Origin: Alphaproteobacteria bacterium
Lineage (GTDB): Bacteria; Pseudomonadota; Alphaproteobacteria; Micavibrionales; Micavibrionaceae
NCBI GenBank assembly: GCA_020443295.1
Contig: JAGRIJ010000006.1
Location: 1-64,000 of the forward strand
DNA: 64,000 nucleotides
Reading direction: 5' to 3'
Numbering within the stretch: the stretch's first letter is position 1; each line of letters opens with the position of its first letter. Under the pieces are notes generated by a model. That model had not been told where the DNA came from. It saw only the letters and a list, made by a program, of their open reading frames with translations, and did no database searches. The translations under genes and the position numbers were made by a program. Below are positions 50,054 through 58,709 of this stretch, one piece after another.

Positions 50054-50917
50054 ATGGCCGGACAAGGGATCATTTCAAAGCTTATGCGCGATCCGCGGCA
50101 TTTTCAGATTTTGACCCTTTTATCTCTTGTGGGGCTGCAGATGCATCTGGCGGATTTCGGACCCAGCCTTGGCGTGATTGTTCTGGCCATCGGCGGGTGT
50201 TTGTTTTTCCAGATCCTTTTTTCCAGGATTTTTTCCGTTCGTCTGGATTTGCGCAGTCCGCTGATCAGCGGGCTTTCTCTTAGCATTCTACTGAAGTCTT
50301 CCCTGTTGTTGACGTATCCGCTGGCCGCGCTGATTGCGGTGGGAAGCAAATTCCTGATCCGGTACCGGGGCAAGCATGTGTTCAATCCGACGAATCTTGC
50401 GATCGTCGCACTGACGCTGGCGATGCCGGCTTATGCCTGGATCTCGCCGGGGCAATGGGGGCAGGCGGTCTGGCTGATCTTTTTCCTGGGGTGCGCCGCC
50501 CTTCTGGTTCTTTACCAGATCCCGCGCTGGGATATGGGCCCGATGTTTCTTGCGATCTGGGCCGTTTTGTTGTTCGGACGCGCTTTGTGGCTTGGCGATC
50601 CGATAGCGATCCCGGTTCATCAAATCCAGAGCGGTGCGCTTCTTATTTTCTGTTTTTTCATGATTTCCGATCCAAAGACCATTCCCGACCGTTTTACCGG
50701 GCGCCTGATTTTCGGGATGATGGTCGCCTTGATCGCCTATTACATTCAGTTCGGACTATACAGAACCGACGGGCTTTTGATTTCACTGGCGCTTGTCAGT
50801 GTTTTCACCCCCCTGATCGACCTTTTGCTTCCGGGCAGCGGGTATAATTGGGGCGACCGTATTCAAAGACACACAGCAGCAAAGGAGACACCGATATGCG
50901 CACTTCCCACCCCTTAA
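50054..50917 (+). CDS. RnfD/NqrB-like membrane protein, orphan, without flavinylation threonine
   Basis: 287 residues with about nine membrane segments. The NqrB/RnfD pattern KHVFNPTNLAIVALTLAMP (about 115) and FFMISDPKTIPD (about 205-215) identify the family. Active RnfD and NqrB carry FMN on the threonine of S-G-A-T; here the site reads QSGALLIF, so Thr is replaced by Leu and covalent FMN is not expected. No other Rnf/Nqr gene is near. It overlaps the start of the DUF2330 gene by 22 bp, so the two are one operon. Confidence 0.75.
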   Translation: MAGQGIISKLMRDPRHFQILTLLSLVGLQMHLADFGPSLGVIVLAIGGCLFFQILFSRIFSVRLDLRSPLISGLSLSILLKSSLLLTYPLAALIAVGSKFLIRYRGKHVFNPTNLAIVALTLAMPAYAWISPGQWGQAVWLIFFLGCAALLVLYQIPRWDMGPMFLAIWAVLLFGRALWLGDPIAIPVHQIQSGALLIFCFFMISDPKTIPDRFTGRLIFGMMVALIAYYIQFGLYRTDGLLISLALVSVFTPLIDLLLPGSGYNWGDRIQRHTAAKETPICALPTP

Positions 50918-52320
50918 AGTTTTTCGGAAAGGCAAGCTTGTGCCTTTCGCTTCTTGGTGCGGGGCTGGCGCTCGGCACATTACCGGCGCAGGCGTTTTGC
51001 GGCTTTTATGTTTCCAAGGCGGATTCGAGCCTCTTTAACAGCGCCTCCAAGGTGATTGTCGCTCATGCGGATGAGCGCACGGTGATTACGATGGCAAATG
51101 ATTTTCAGGGGGATCTGGACGAGTTCGCCATCGTCATTCCCGTGCCTGAGGTCTTGAAGAAAAACCAGATCCATGTGGCGGAGACGCGGCTTGTCGACCA
51201 TATGGACGCTTACACGGCGCCGCGGCTGGTGGAGTATTTCGATCCCGATCCGTGCCAGCCCCCCATGCGGGAAATGATGGCGATGAGCGCGATGGACAGC
51301 GTCGGCGCTTCGGCTCCTGCGGAAATGAAAAAATCCGCCGGGTCTTTAGGCGTTACCATTGAGGCGGAATACACAGTCGGAGAGTACGATATCGTGCTTC
51401 TTTCCGCGAAGGAAAGCCAAGGGCTTCTGACCTATCTGAATCAGGAAGGCTACAAGCTGCCGCGCGGGGCGGAGAAAATTCTGGGCAGCTATATCAAGCA
51501 GGATCTCAAATTCTTTCTTGCCAAGGTGAATCTGGAGGAGCAGAAGAGCACAGGTTACACTTATCTCCGTCCGCTGCAGATCGCGTTCGAGTCGCCCAAG
51601 TTCGTTCTGCCGATCCGTCTTGGAACGCTGAACGCCAAAGGACCGCAGGATTTGCTGCTTTATACGCTGACCCGCAACGGGCGCGTGGAAACGGCGAATT
51701 ACCGGACGGTGAAAATCCCCTCCAACATGAATATTCCGACCTATGTGAAGAACGGAAGTGAATTCGGAGAATTCTACAAGGCCATGTTCGATACCGCCGT
51801 GAAAAAAGAGAATATGAAGGCCGTGTTCCTTGAATACGCCTGGAATATGGGATGGTGCGATCCTTGCGCGGCCGATCCGATTCCCAACGAGGATCTGCTG
51901 ACTCTCGGGGCGTGGTGGATCAGCCAGCCGCCCGTTACATCCAACTGGCAGAACCGGGGCATCATGCCTCCGCAGCAGGCCCCGCAGGTTTTCGTCACGC
52001 GGATGCATGTGCGCTATGACGCCGACCATTTCCCCGAGGATCTTGTTTTGAAAGAAACCGGAGACACGGAGAATTTCCAAGGCCGTTATGTTCTGCAGCA
52101 TCCCTGGACGGGGGCCGTCAATTGCACGCAGGGACAGGAGTATCTGCGGAGCCTGCCCGCGCGGTTCGAGCAGGAAGCCAAGACCATGGCGATGCTGACC
52201 GGGTGGGATATCAATGATATCCGCCGGAAAATGAAATCCAACGGTCAATCGCCCGAGCCGGGTCCCGGTCCTGGTCCCGAGCCGAAGCCATGGTGGGATG
52301 ATATGTGGAATAAACAGTAA
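50896..52320 (+). CDS. DUF2330-domain exported protein
   Basis: 474 residues from the ATG at 50896, chosen for AAAGGAG about 9 nt upstream; a longer frame starts at 50848. A signal peptide (about 1-34, ending P-A-Q-A) is followed by the DUF2330 pattern: FCGFYVSKADSSLFNSASKV, DEFAIVIPVPEVL, and WCDPCAADPIPNEDL near residue 315. The C-terminal 30 residues are Pro/Gly-rich. Function unknown. It is coupled to the RnfD-like gene, which suggests a joint membrane-periplasm role. Confidence 0.85.
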   Translation: MRTSHPLKFFGKASLCLSLLGAGLALGTLPAQAFCGFYVSKADSSLFNSASKVIVAHADERTVITMANDFQGDLDEFAIVIPVPEVLKKNQIHVAETRLVDHMDAYTAPRLVEYFDPDPCQPPMREMMAMSAMDSVGASAPAEMKKSAGSLGVTIEAEYTVGEYDIVLLSAKESQGLLTYLNQEGYKLPRGAEKILGSYIKQDLKFFLAKVNLEEQKSTGYTYLRPLQIAFESPKFVLPIRLGTLNAKGPQDLLLYTLTRNGRVETANYRTVKIPSNMNIPTYVKNGSEFGEFYKAMFDTAVKKENMKAVFLEYAWNMGWCDPCAADPIPNEDLLTLGAWWISQPPVTSNWQNRGIMPPQQAPQVFVTRMHVRYDADHFPEDLVLKETGDTENFQGRYVLQHPWTGAVNCTQGQEYLRSLPARFEQEAKTMAMLTGWDINDIRRKMKSNGQSPEPGPGPGPEPKPWWDDMWNKQ

Positions 52321-54728: not shown

Positions 54729-54902
54729 TCAGGCTTTTATATCGAGACGTCCTCCCCTGCCTGAGGCCGGGGTTACGGTTATCGATTCTTCAAGGATTTT
54801 TGCCACCTGCTGGGCCTGCTGTGCATTCTGTTTGATTACAGATAACGCCACATTCTGTCTGGCCAGAGCGGTCTCAGCAGCGATTGCGTATGGAACATCC
54901 AC
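54729..54902 (-). CDS. YjfB-like putative motility protein
   Basis: 57 residues from a GTG at 54902, supported by AAAAGGAG about 7 nt upstream. The protein starts MDVPYAIAAETALARQNVAL, continues with a Gln-rich amphipathic helix (VIKQNAQQAQQVAKILEES) and ends in GRGGRLDIKA. This order, an M-D-V start, a single K-Q helix and an R-x-D-I-K-A end, matches the small YjfB family annotated as putative motility proteins (from memory). No flagellar genes are nearby. It ends at the terminator shared with hemA. Confidence 0.75.
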   Translation of the reverse strand: MDVPYAIAAETALARQNVALSVIKQNAQQAQQVAKILEESITVTPASGRGGRLDIKA

Positions 54903-55052
54903 AGTAAAACTCCTTTTTACCTTTCTTTATACTACCATGGTTTTTATTAAAAATCGTTAATAAGTGCTCAAAATCGGGTTTTTTCCACGGCGATCCGGTT
55001 CAAAAGTTGGGCATTATTTTCCATACGGCGTTGTTTGAGGCGAGCATAAATC

Positions 55053-55070: not shown

Positions 55071-55118
55071 TTACATAGGGAATCATACTCCGTGGGCAAT
55101 CCGCAGGGGGCAGCGAGC

Positions 55119-55550
55119 ATGGATACACGGCAAATTATCATGAGCTATACTGTTCCGCCGAGCGTCGATGATCTTCAGGCGCTGTCCGCCAGTATTTTCG
55201 AGGATTTGCCAGAGGAATTACTGGAATTTTGCGAGGAATTGCAGATTACCGTCGAGGATCTGGTGGATGAGGCGACGGAGATTGAGCTGGAGCTTGAGGA
55301 CCCTTACGAGTTGCTGGCTCTTTACAGAAACGGCAAGGAAATTTCCCCCGGCGTCGAGAAGAAAACCGCGGAAAATACTGATGTTCTGGTGCTTTACCGC
55401 CGGGCTGTGCTGGATGTCTGGTGTGAAACGTGCGAGGATTTTTCAAAGCTTTTGCGGCAGATCATGATTGAGGAGCTGGGGCGGCGGTTCGGGTTTTCTG
55501 ATACGGAGATCAATGAAATGGCGAAACGCCATTATCAGGGCCTTTTCTAA
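55119..55550 (+). CDS. Minimal metallopeptidase-like (DUF1025-type) protein without zinc motif
   Basis: 143 residues from the ATG at 55119, with AGGGGG about 8 nt upstream; the frame is open from a GTG at 55092. It follows the minimal MMP-like family layout: FEDLPEELLEFCEEL, ITVEDLVDEA, LELEDPYELLALY, VLVLYRRAVLDVWCET and then IMIEELGRRFGFSDTEI. Family members have H-E-x-G-H-H at this last position. Here the three His are E, R and R, so zinc binding is lost. It is probably a non-catalytic derivative. Start of a two-gene region with the Cys-rich exported protein. Confidence 0.7.
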   Translation: MDTRQIIMSYTVPPSVDDLQALSASIFEDLPEELLEFCEELQITVEDLVDEATEIELELEDPYELLALYRNGKEISPGVEKKTAENTDVLVLYRRAVLDVWCETCEDFSKLLRQIMIEELGRRFGFSDTEINEMAKRHYQGLF

Positions 55551-55664: not shown

Positions 55665-56723
55665 TTGTTCTCCTTTTTAAGAACATACGCGCTTGTTTGT
55701 TTGTTTACTCTTTATGCCCCGGCAGCTTTTGCTGCGGCTGCCGTTCCCCCAACATGCGATGCCGATTTCTGGGACGTCCTCCGGGCCCGGGCATGGGAAG
55801 AGGCCAACCGGGAGATTACGCAGAATCAGAACCTGATCGCCAAGCCGGACAGCGTTCTTTCCTATATCTGCTGGGATAATTACATGGACCATCTGGCCCG
55901 GTATTCGGAGAATGGCGGTCCGGAGGATCCTGACGGGGTCGGGGGGATCTTTTACGATCTTTACGTGCTGATCCGGCAGATTCCCGGCGCTCTTGATCCG
56001 GATCTGACTGACGGGCTGGATATGAACAGCGTGCTTGAGATTCTCATTCTCGATTCTCTTACCGACGGTGTTTCGGCTTTATCGATCCTTGATGCCGGAG
56101 GTCTTACGGCAGCGGCCTGCGGACGCGATTATTATATCGATGCCAATTTCGATCATACTTTTCTGGGTGGCCGGAGTGGAATCAGCCAGGCGCTGAGCAG
56201 CAGCATCAGCGATTCGAATTATACCTGCAACCGGATGCGCCAAGTCTGGGACGTCGCCAAGTGTTACAATTTCCAGACCCGCTCGCATGATGCGTTCTTT
56301 ACTTTCGATCAGTACCGCGCCCACGAAGCCGCTGACAGGGATTACAGGGAATTGCCGACGGAATGTACCGATCTGGATACCGATCTGGCGCACGTCCTCT
56401 GTAATTATATTATTCATGGAACACCGCCCAATATTCTGGGAAGTGCCGGCTGGCCCTGGTCGGGGGGTGCTCCGACCGTGTGGACTACCGCTTATCCTGC
56501 CGCTAACCCCAATCCCGGCGCAGCGGGCGGGGCTGATAGCACGCTTTCCTATTTCAATTTGCTCGATCCCACGGCCTGCGGGGGGTTGACTCCTGTCAAG
56601 ACCGGGGTGATCGTGGCACGGCCGAATTCTGGGACGTCCTATACGGACGCCGTGTGTACGGCGCCCGGGTGTTGGTATCAGCCCGGGGGCAGTGTTGCCG
56701 CCGCAGGGTCCTGTAATCCCTGA
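55665..56723 (+). CDS. Exported Cys-rich protein of unknown function, TTG start
   Basis: 352 residues. No ATG or GTG opens the frame before the signal peptide; the stop at 55641 limits the start to the TTG at 55665, with CGGGG about 9 nt upstream. A signal peptide (about 1-24, ending A-A-F-A) precedes a mature protein with about 11 Cys and the motifs CDADFWDVLRARAWEEANRE and ITQNQNLIAKPDSVLSYICWD. I recall proteins with this D-x-x-x-x-R-A-x-x-E-x-x-R-E-x-x-Q-N-Q-N-L pattern in alphaproteobacteria with Icm-type loci, but cannot confirm it. The C-terminus is Gly/Pro/Ala-rich. Confidence 0.6.
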   Translation: MFSFLRTYALVCLFTLYAPAAFAAAAVPPTCDADFWDVLRARAWEEANREITQNQNLIAKPDSVLSYICWDNYMDHLARYSENGGPEDPDGVGGIFYDLYVLIRQIPGALDPDLTDGLDMNSVLEILILDSLTDGVSALSILDAGGLTAAACGRDYYIDANFDHTFLGGRSGISQALSSSISDSNYTCNRMRQVWDVAKCYNFQTRSHDAFFTFDQYRAHEAADRDYRELPTECTDLDTDLAHVLCNYIIHGTPPNILGSAGWPWSGGAPTVWTTAYPAANPNPGAAGGADSTLSYFNLLDPTACGGLTPVKTGVIVARPNSGTSYTDAVCTAPGCWYQPGGSVAAAGSCNP

Positions 56724-56732
56724 TTTTTTTCT

Positions 56733-58709
56733 TTATTCTTTTAAGCCTTGCAGCATGATCGCCGACATCCGCCGGGCGAAGGCACCGGGGTCTTCCAGCG
56801 GCTCTCCTTGCAGGATGAATGCCTGATCAAGAAGCAGGTTTGCCGCTTCCTCGATATTCTCTCCTTTTTCCGCCATTTGGGCGATCCTGATGATCAGAGG
56901 GTGTTTCGCGTTGATCTCCAGAACCGGCTTTGTGTTGCTTTCGTATTTCTGGTGGATTTTCAATACGCGTTCCATGTGCATGTCAACGCTGTTATCCGCC
57001 GCAACAAGGCAGACCGGTGAATTGGTCAGACGCTGGGACTTCCTGACATTCTGAATTTTTCCCTGAAGAAGGGAGGCGAGGCGTACGATGAGCGCACCGA
57101 TATTCGCGGTTTCCGGCTCTTTATCGCTGCTTTTTTCGGTTTCGGCCGGGTCCTGTTTGTCCCCCGGCGTGTCGAACGTGTCGAGATTCACATTCCCTTT
57201 CGTTATGGATTTGAAGGGTTTCCCGTCATAATCCAGTACTTTCTGAAGCCAGAAATCATCAATCGTGTCCGTGAGAAAAAGAACTTCGAGCCCCCGGGCG
57301 CGGAACCCTTCGAGTTGCGGGCTGTTGCGCAGGCCGGCAAGGGATTCGCCCGTAATATAGTAAATATTCTCCTGTCCTTCTTTCATGCGGGAGACGTAGT
57401 CTTCAAGGTTTGTGAGTTTTTCACCGCTATCGTGAGTCGAGAAGAAGCGGCAGACTTTCAGCAATTCAGCGCGCAGCTCGGGCGCATCGTAGAGCCCTTC
57501 TTTCACTACGGAACCGAACTGACCCCAGAGGCTTGAGAATGTCGGCGGATCTTCGCGGGAGAGTTTATCAAGATCGGAGAGAATGCGTTTGGCTACTGCC
57601 GAGCGGATCTTGCTTACGACCGGGTTGAACTGCAGGCTTTCGCGGCTGATATTCAGGGGCAGGTCTTCGCTGTCGATAATTCCGCGCACAAAACGCAGCC
57701 ACGGATACATGAGCGTATTTACATCCTCGGAAATAAAAACGCGGCGTACGTACAGCTTTACAAAGTGCCGGCGCGAGGGATCGAAGAGGTCCCACGGGCG
57801 CAGAGTTGGAATATAGAGCAGGGCGGTGAATTCGATTTTTCCTTCCGCTTTCCAATGCGCGGTCATCAGCGGTTCATCGAAGCCGCCCGTCAGATGCCGG
57901 TAGAATTCAGTATATTGTTCCGCGCCGATTTCCGACTTCGGGCGCATCCACAGCGCGGAGGCGGTGTTGAGCTTTTCCGACTGGTCGTGTTTTGTGTCAT
58001 GAGGAGTGCCCAGAAAGATCGGAACGCTGATATGGTCCGAATACATCTGGACCGTCAGCTTGATTTTATCGTCGATCAGAAAATCGCAGGCTTCGTCTTT
58101 CAGATCGAGCTTTATGGCTGTTCCGCGTTCGCCGTCAAGCCATTGGGCCTGTTCTTTACCGGCCTTTGTTACGGTGTATCCTGAGCGCCCGTCGGACTCC
58201 CACAGCCATGCCTGTTTTTCCCCGGCCTTGCGGCTGACCACGCGGATACGGTGGGATACCATGAAGCCAGCATAAAAGCCGACCCCGAACTGACCGATCA
58301 GTTTAAGATTCCCTTCACCTCCGCCCTGTTCCTTCATCTGTTTCATCAGCGCTGCCGTGCCGGATTTGGCGATGGTTCCCAGATTGTCAGCGAGTTCTTC
58401 ACCGTTCATCCCGATGCCGTTATCGACAACGGTCAAGGTGCGGTCGCTCGTATCCTTGAACACGTGGATCCTGAAATCGGGATTGTCTTTAGCAAGGTCC
58501 GGGTTGCCAATCGAATCATAGCGCAGGCGGTCGCAGGCGTCGGCGGCGTTCGAGATCAATTCGCGCAGAAAGACCTCGTGATTCGTGTACAGCGCGTTCG
58601 CAACAATATCGAGCAGGCGCGCAACATCAGCGCTGAAGGATTTCGTGTTTTCCCCTGAACCGGGAGGGGGCGTTTCCCCTTGATTCTTCTGTGTCGCGTT
58701 TGCATTCAT
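56733..58709 (-). CDS. htpG: HtpG, Hsp90 chaperone
   Basis: 658 residues. The N-terminal GHKL ATPase domain has FLRELISNAADACDRLRY and VVDNGIGMNGEEL, GQFGVGFYAGFMVS, followed by the middle domain (RRVFISED, GIIDSEDLPLNISRE) and a C-terminal dimerisation domain. A 25-residue polar extension (MNANATQKNQGETPPPG) precedes the domain. It remodels client proteins together with DnaK. Convergent with the Cys-rich gene, 9 bp away. Confidence 0.97.
   Translation of the reverse strand: MNANATQKNQGETPPPGSGENTKSFSADVARLLDIVANALYTNHEVFLRELISNAADACDRLRYDSIGNPDLAKDNPDFRIHVFKDTSDRTLTVVDNGIGMNGEELADNLGTIAKSGTAALMKQMKEQGGGEGNLKLIGQFGVGFYAGFMVSHRIRVVSRKAGEKQAWLWESDGRSGYTVTKAGKEQAQWLDGERGTAIKLDLKDEACDFLIDDKIKLTVQMYSDHISVPIFLGTPHDTKHDQSEKLNTASALWMRPKSEIGAEQYTEFYRHLTGGFDEPLMTAHWKAEGKIEFTALLYIPTLRPWDLFDPSRRHFVKLYVRRVFISEDVNTLMYPWLRFVRGIIDSEDLPLNISRESLQFNPVVSKIRSAVAKRILSDLDKLSREDPPTFSSLWGQFGSVVKEGLYDAPELRAELLKVCRFFSTHDSGEKLTNLEDYVSRMKEGQENIYYITGESLAGLRNSPQLEGFRARGLEVLFLTDTIDDFWLQKVLDYDGKPFKSITKGNVNLDTFDTPGDKQDPAETEKSSDKEPETANIGALIVRLASLLQGKIQNVRKSQRLTNSPVCLVAADNSVDMHMERVLKIHQKYESNTKPVLEINAKHPLIIRIAQMAEKGENIEEAANLLLDQAFILQGEPLEDPGAFARRMSAIMLQGLKE

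Follow-up and report, generated by a model that had tools for sequence, protein, structure and literature searches.

The gene at positions 55119-55550 (+) of the 64,000-nucleotide stretch of DNA analysed here (the window) encodes a zinc-site-less homologue of the Zincin_1 family (PF06262): both zinc-binding His of the mini-zincin active site have been lost, the fold and the catalytic Glu are kept, and the gene is retained under purifying selection rather than decaying. Judging from the homologues compared below, the loss appears to be concentrated in the Micavibrio-type order (Micavibrionales) and to be order-wide rather than the property of one odd gene. Predation is known for M. aeruginosavorus.

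The reading frame, called intact in the preliminary description, is open from ATG to TAA and specifies 143 amino acids plus stop, with IMIEELGRRFGFSD forming part of the product. A possible ribosome-binding stretch, AGGGGG (55105-55110, +), lies 8 nt 5' of the ATG by direct reading of the sequence, and a GTG at 55092 is also possible as the start. Residues 38-134 match the Zincin_1 profile with an E-value of 3.2e-18 and 65.9 bits, above the curated cut-off of 22.4, so that family membership is indicated both by the score and by the mini-zincin fold described below; a search of NCBIfam returned nothing usable (E 0.14). The closest solved relative is the Acel_2062 mini-zincin (3E11), which belongs to the same Pfam family (PF06262, or DUF1025), has the same compact fold and is similarly acidic (pI 4.29, against 4.19 for the window protein). 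On alignment, VVHEIAHHFGIDD in 3E11 corresponds to MIEELGRRFGFSD in the window protein. The former HExxHxxGxxD motif reads EELGRRFGFSD (residues 118-128; 55470-55502, +), or EExxRxxGxxD in the terms of the Asp-zincins, whereas 3E11 retains HEIAHHFGIDD. The two zinc-binding His of HExxH expected in an Asp-zincin are thus replaced by E118 (at the first ligand, H1) and R122 (at the second, H5); the catalytic Glu (E119; codon 55473-55475, +), the turn Gly (G125) and the third-ligand Asp (D128) are present, as in 3E11. This agrees with the replacement of H-E-x-G-H-H by E-E-x-G-R-R that had been noted from the sequence alone, here placed at E118, E119 and R122.

The preliminary description had also named two findings that would refute it, and neither of them was made. 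The motif does not lie elsewhere in the protein, and a displaced copy was excluded, as H138 is the only His present; for the same reason histidines cannot rebuild a substitute zinc site. An active paralogue had been suggested as a further check: a profile search of the assembly of origin (2.56 Mb, 87 contigs) gave a single PF06262 match and revealed no second copy there, and each matching genome of the order likewise has one match. The profile did match in Caulobacter vibrioides, which served as a control. A Cys-based zinc site was considered separately. The protein has three Cys (C38, C102 and C105), and C102 is invariant in a 30-row alignment; because C105 varies in the same alignment, no conserved Cys site is supported.

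The fold itself was examined with an AlphaFold2 model computed from the window protein and 75 natural homologues (pLDDT 84.3, pTM 0.80), in which pLDDT falls below 50 at both ends and at residues 76-83 and is weak at 141-143. Both the helix on which the two His once stood (residues 108-123) and the final one (128-136) are predicted. Foldseek with this model returned only 3E11 at E <= 0.001 (1.7e-6), and VIA-align likewise placed 3E11 on top (Z 10.7 over 108 residues, with an rmsd of 3.5), so that the earlier claim of a well-kept fold stands. The topology also resembles that of the metallo-endoribonuclease YbeY (1XM5, Z 8.9; 1OZ9, listed as AQ_1354, Z 8.3). YbeY requires a three-His metal motif. 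The window protein, with H138 alone, lacks this motif of the YbeY/UPF0054 proteins, and YbeY was absent from its Pfam matches up to E 1. Another YbeY scored 6.9, selecase 6.8 and TTHA0227 (2EJQ) 7.7 (rmsd 4.0 over 97 residues); because Z values below 8 may reflect a common arrangement only, such rows were given no weight, with the exception of 2EJQ. The latter belongs to the same family, has a matching fold and retains the Asp-zincin motif, into which four residues are inserted (PMC3890501).

How far the motif break extends was assessed over 149 homologue rows, made distinct on the aligned segment, of which 101 came from the Micavibrio-type order and 48 from elsewhere. The full HExxHxxGxxD motif occurs in none of the 101 order rows versus all 48 others, every one of which reads H-E-H-G-D at the motif positions; given the absence from all 101, the break in the window gene is not a matter of chance. 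Because the 48 were best-scoring matches, biased toward intact motifs, the remaining 31 class matches were fetched, and further phylum loci were added to the correction: two of the 31 end before the motif and 26 of the 29 readable ones are intact, as are 64 of 64 newly fetched loci in the phylum sample. It is from these counts, inside and outside, that the loss appears concentrated in the order. One class locus outside the order (L217) carries Glu as the third ligand. Two further loci outside the order were observed in small genomes, one having lost both His (L219; 1.8 Mb, G217) and the other the first His (L222; 1.2 Mb, G165), each with the Glu retained. Across the 149 rows, all 148 that can be read at the catalytic position have the Glu there, the remaining one being an X.

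Single members with a broken motif were known before: the mini-zincin paper counts 80 of more than 500 homologues as lacking the full motif, many through a change of the third ligand (PMC3890501), and a DUF1025 survey gives 76% of members as carrying HExxH (PMC3650047). Among the papers listed by our searches of the open-access literature, none reported a zinc-less PF06262 protein in Micavibrio or an order-wide motif break with an invariant Glu. The order-wide break and the invariant Glu, together with the survival of the third-ligand Asp in the window's member, go beyond the preliminary description.

Within the order, the ligands appear, from the aligned rows, to have been lost piecemeal and by several routes. 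On the basis of identity and record titles, rows L082-L141 were assigned to the window's family (f1), L142 and L145-L161 to other alphaproteobacteria (L160 being titled Stygiobacter), L143 to f7 and L144 to f5; the rows of these groups that were sampled in the tree fell where assigned. In the 75 rows of the window's family, H1 is Glu in 72 and Gln, Ala and Leu in one each, and the catalytic Glu is kept in all 74 readable rows. The H5 position is far more varied (Arg in 36 rows, Gln in 14, Asn in nine, Lys in six, Thr and Ala in three each, Ser in two, Gly and His in one each), a basic residue standing there in 42 rows, R122 included. The motif Gly has become acidic in 72 rows (D 47, E 25, G 3), and the third ligand is Asp in 44, Glu in 30 and Ala in one. 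The sister family f3 (14 rows) follows another course, keeping H1 in eight rows, H5 in nine and the Asp in none, and all seven rows of f5 carry Gln at H1.

A tree of 89 rows and 122 columns, computed with the motif columns left out and with the window-family rows thinned from 75 to 39 and the others from 48 to 24, recovered the Micavibrio-type order as a single clade (SH-aLRT 99). The window's family formed one side of a branch with a support of only 68, and 39 of the 86 inner branches are open. On this tree H1 changes nine times, H5 23 times, the Gly 12 times and the Asp 21 times, and the catalytic Glu not once. Within the order (65 rows) the median position changes 14 times, with H5 (22) and the Asp (21) above it and H1 (8) below; only nine of 133 positions never change, namely I6, P14, P31, R94, R95, L98, D99, W101 and E119. 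We regard this as the most telling result: E119 is fixed and the ligand positions move, so what constraint the former active site still bears is focused on the Glu rather than on the ligands. A counterweight is that the window's family has adopted Glu at H1, and the invariant E119 could be structural.

We consider it somewhat probable that the window protein is a retained 'pseudo' mini-zincin, in which the ligands were lost piecemeal, the fold was kept, a salt bridge took the place of zinc, and the protein works by binding rather than cutting. The zinc ligands would have gone stepwise within the Micavibrio-type order, leaving intact the small alpha/beta fold together with its cleft. H95, H99 and D105 of 3E11 have side chains that point to the site of the metal (PMC3890501); because these three converge at one point, E118, R122 and D128 should meet there as well, and by homology they would form an acid-base-acid cluster. 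The resulting Glu-Arg-Asp salt bridge would hold helix and turn together in place of the zinc ion, an arrangement that cannot be the rule everywhere, because the basic residue at H5 is found in only 42 of the 75 family rows. The protein would then act through binding, with the old substrate cleft, including Glu119, which never changes, and the helix of R94, R95, D99 and W101, holding a partner protein or peptide. A point against the proposal is that three of the 101 order rows retain both His, the Asp being lost in those. A lineage that keeps the gene without its zinc motif implies that the remaining need should not require zinc; the job of the window protein most likely needs none, and its role is probably non-catalytic. 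There are precedents in pseudo-metallopeptidases and other pseudoproteases, which have lost active-site residues, retain the fold and act via protein-protein interaction (PMC11266112); the terms PF06262, M103, mini-zincin and zincin do not occur in the part of that review that is available.

A second feature of the family may bear on such binding. The window protein ends in the tail KRHYQGLF (residues 136-143; 55524-55547, +), whose RHYQGLF is extra relative to 3E11; the short tail of the window's family takes the form RHYQGML. The pattern xH.Q is matched by 59 of the 75 family rows, and 66 have a His within the last 12 residues. No xH.Q was seen in 26 sister-family tails or in the 20 listed of the 48 other tails, and one f7 row (L038) has RH in its tail. 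Since the C-terminal Tyr carboxylate of 3E11 binds the active-site His95 (PMC3890501), the tail of the window's family starts beside the old cleft, where an RHYQGML-like tail would sit as a plug or docking peptide; by analogy with 3E11, docking at the old cleft is thus plausible. A shared C-terminal tag was also considered and rejected, because the encoded tail pattern occurs only once in the genome.

The best lead for the process involved comes from gene neighbourhoods. At a distance limit of 2.5 kb, the zincin gene and a gene for pterin-4a-carbinolamine dehydratase (PF01329) form a head-to-head pair at 40 of 63 class loci (a sample that includes two order genomes, one of them head-to-head), and in 37 of these 40 pairs no more than 400 bp separates the matched stretches. 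The same arrangement holds for 29 of 50 loci of the window's relatives, 17 of 35 in its own family. Examples of the pair are G008:C6:175261-176124 and L044:4950-5767, and no report of such a PF06262-PF01329 pair was among the papers listed by a search of the open-access literature. In the class sample, PF01329 is present in 58 of 62 zincin-bearing versus 38 of 80 zincin-free genomes (Fisher p 1.9e-9, uncorrected for kinship and genome size). As zinc-less relatives are still found head-to-head with PF01329, the ancestral locus has, in many members, persisted beyond the loss of the zinc site; in others the zincin has outlived the locus. Indeed, the dehydratase is no obligate partner, since the two genes are not adjacent in the window's genus and nine of the 50 zincin-bearing relatives have no PF01329 match at all.

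The pairing, found whether or not a member has the zinc motif, is also an argument for another explanation, namely that PF06262 proteins were never peptidases: a metal-independent job would be done everywhere, the His of other members would be there to sense or store metal or to stabilise the fold, and losing them would have changed little. The mini-zincin paper, in its available portion, describes no zinc in either solved member, 3E11 or 2EJQ (the latter reported with Mg), and gives peptidase activity as unproven for both in 2014 (PMC3890501). Against this stands the almost perfect conservation of the motif outside the order (48 of 48 rows, 26 of the 29 readable class loci and all 64 phylum loci), and because a useless motif would hardly be held so strictly, we regard the explanation as possible but unlikely. 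A further proposal, which we rate as rather unlikely, is that the selected function of the family is not proteolysis; here the order would have broken the zinc site, with a salt bridge in many members, and the invariant Glu would centre a peptide or ligand site tied to pterin-4a-carbinolamine dehydratase through the class-wide head-to-head pair.

Somewhat less likely still is a converted site, in which E118, E119, D128 and possibly H138 would bind another metal (e.g. Mn, Ca or Mg), so that the protein would retain a metal chemistry of hydrolytic or regulatory kind. An altered metal site would fit the good conservation of E118 (72 of 75 rows; eight changes against a median of 14), and acidic residues likewise prevail at the catalytic Glu (74 of 74 readable rows) and the third ligand (Asp or Glu in 74 of 75); the common C-terminal His (66 of 75 rows) and the very acidic character of the protein (pI 4.19) point the same way. 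However, 42 of the 75 family rows, that of the window protein (R122) included, have a positive charge at the centre of the site, which should repel a cation.

That the window gene is retained, and is not a pseudogene, had already been proposed, and comparison across genomes supports this. PF06262 is found in 128 of 142 order genomes, one match each and with no internal stop in the match row. Compared with two genomes of the same genus, the window gene gives dN/dS values of 0.104 and 0.139 by the Nei-Gojobori method, at a partly saturated dS of 1.0-1.3. Its neighbours, compared with L135, give 0.048 (hemA), 0.059 (the small gene at 54732), 0.081 (htpG and the secreted-looking gene at 55665) and 0.102 (pdxH), which places the zincin near pdxH and htpG; a PfkB neighbour has no match in L135 and hence no value. 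Decay toward loss, for which the six window-family genomes of 104 without a match could speak (G059, G060, G072, G013, G085 and G028, by loss or incomplete assembly), is hardly credible in view of the stop-free rows, the dN/dS of 0.10-0.14, the nine positions invariant over the order and the fact that M. aeruginosavorus ARL-13 has been called 'almost completely devoid of pseudogenes' (PMC3189940).

A retained 'pseudo' mini-zincin would be of wider interest, as PF06262 is widespread and its function is given as unproven in the accessible part of PMC3890501. A lineage without the metal motif, but with a selected gene and a kept Glu, amounts to a natural separation-of-function experiment, and its zinc-less orthologues make the question of whether a mini-zincin is a peptidase directly testable. 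The break of the motif also speaks against annotating the PF06262 genes of the order as metallopeptidases.

Some further observations concern the surroundings of the gene. In Magnetospirillum-type loci, a LonC-like AAA_32 protease gene lies 3' of an intact zincin (e.g. L148:6141-8846). None of the 58 relatives of the window gave a match to AAA_32 (PF13654), and in the class sample it occurs in 31 of 62 zincin-bearing versus 20 of 80 zincin-free genomes (Fisher p 0.0027, uncorrected for kinship and genome size). The idea that the zincin had lost a protease partner was dropped, because half of the zincin-bearing class genomes live without AAA_32.

In the window, the zincin is flanked by hemA, a small minus-strand gene, a gene for a secreted-looking protein and htpG (hemA and htpG being read from their translations). 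Conservation of the flanks was counted over 60 family loci, several of them with short flanks. The small gene (54732-54926, -; 65 codons, dN/dS 0.059, no Pfam match) is found at 26 of the 60, and its product presumably resembles small YjfB-like motility proteins. The secreted-looking protein (55665-56723, +), with a signal-peptide-like start, several Cys and no Pfam match, is encoded at 21 of 60, and a DUF2330 protein (50848-52320, +; PF10092, 4.5e-80) at eight of 60. The htpG gene adjoins at 56733-58709 (-). The C-terminal domain of HtpG is itself a weak fold match of the window protein (VIA-align Z 5.1), and its likeness to 3E11 is noted in the available text of PMC3890501; that a protein of this fold is encoded next to htpG is probably a coincidence.
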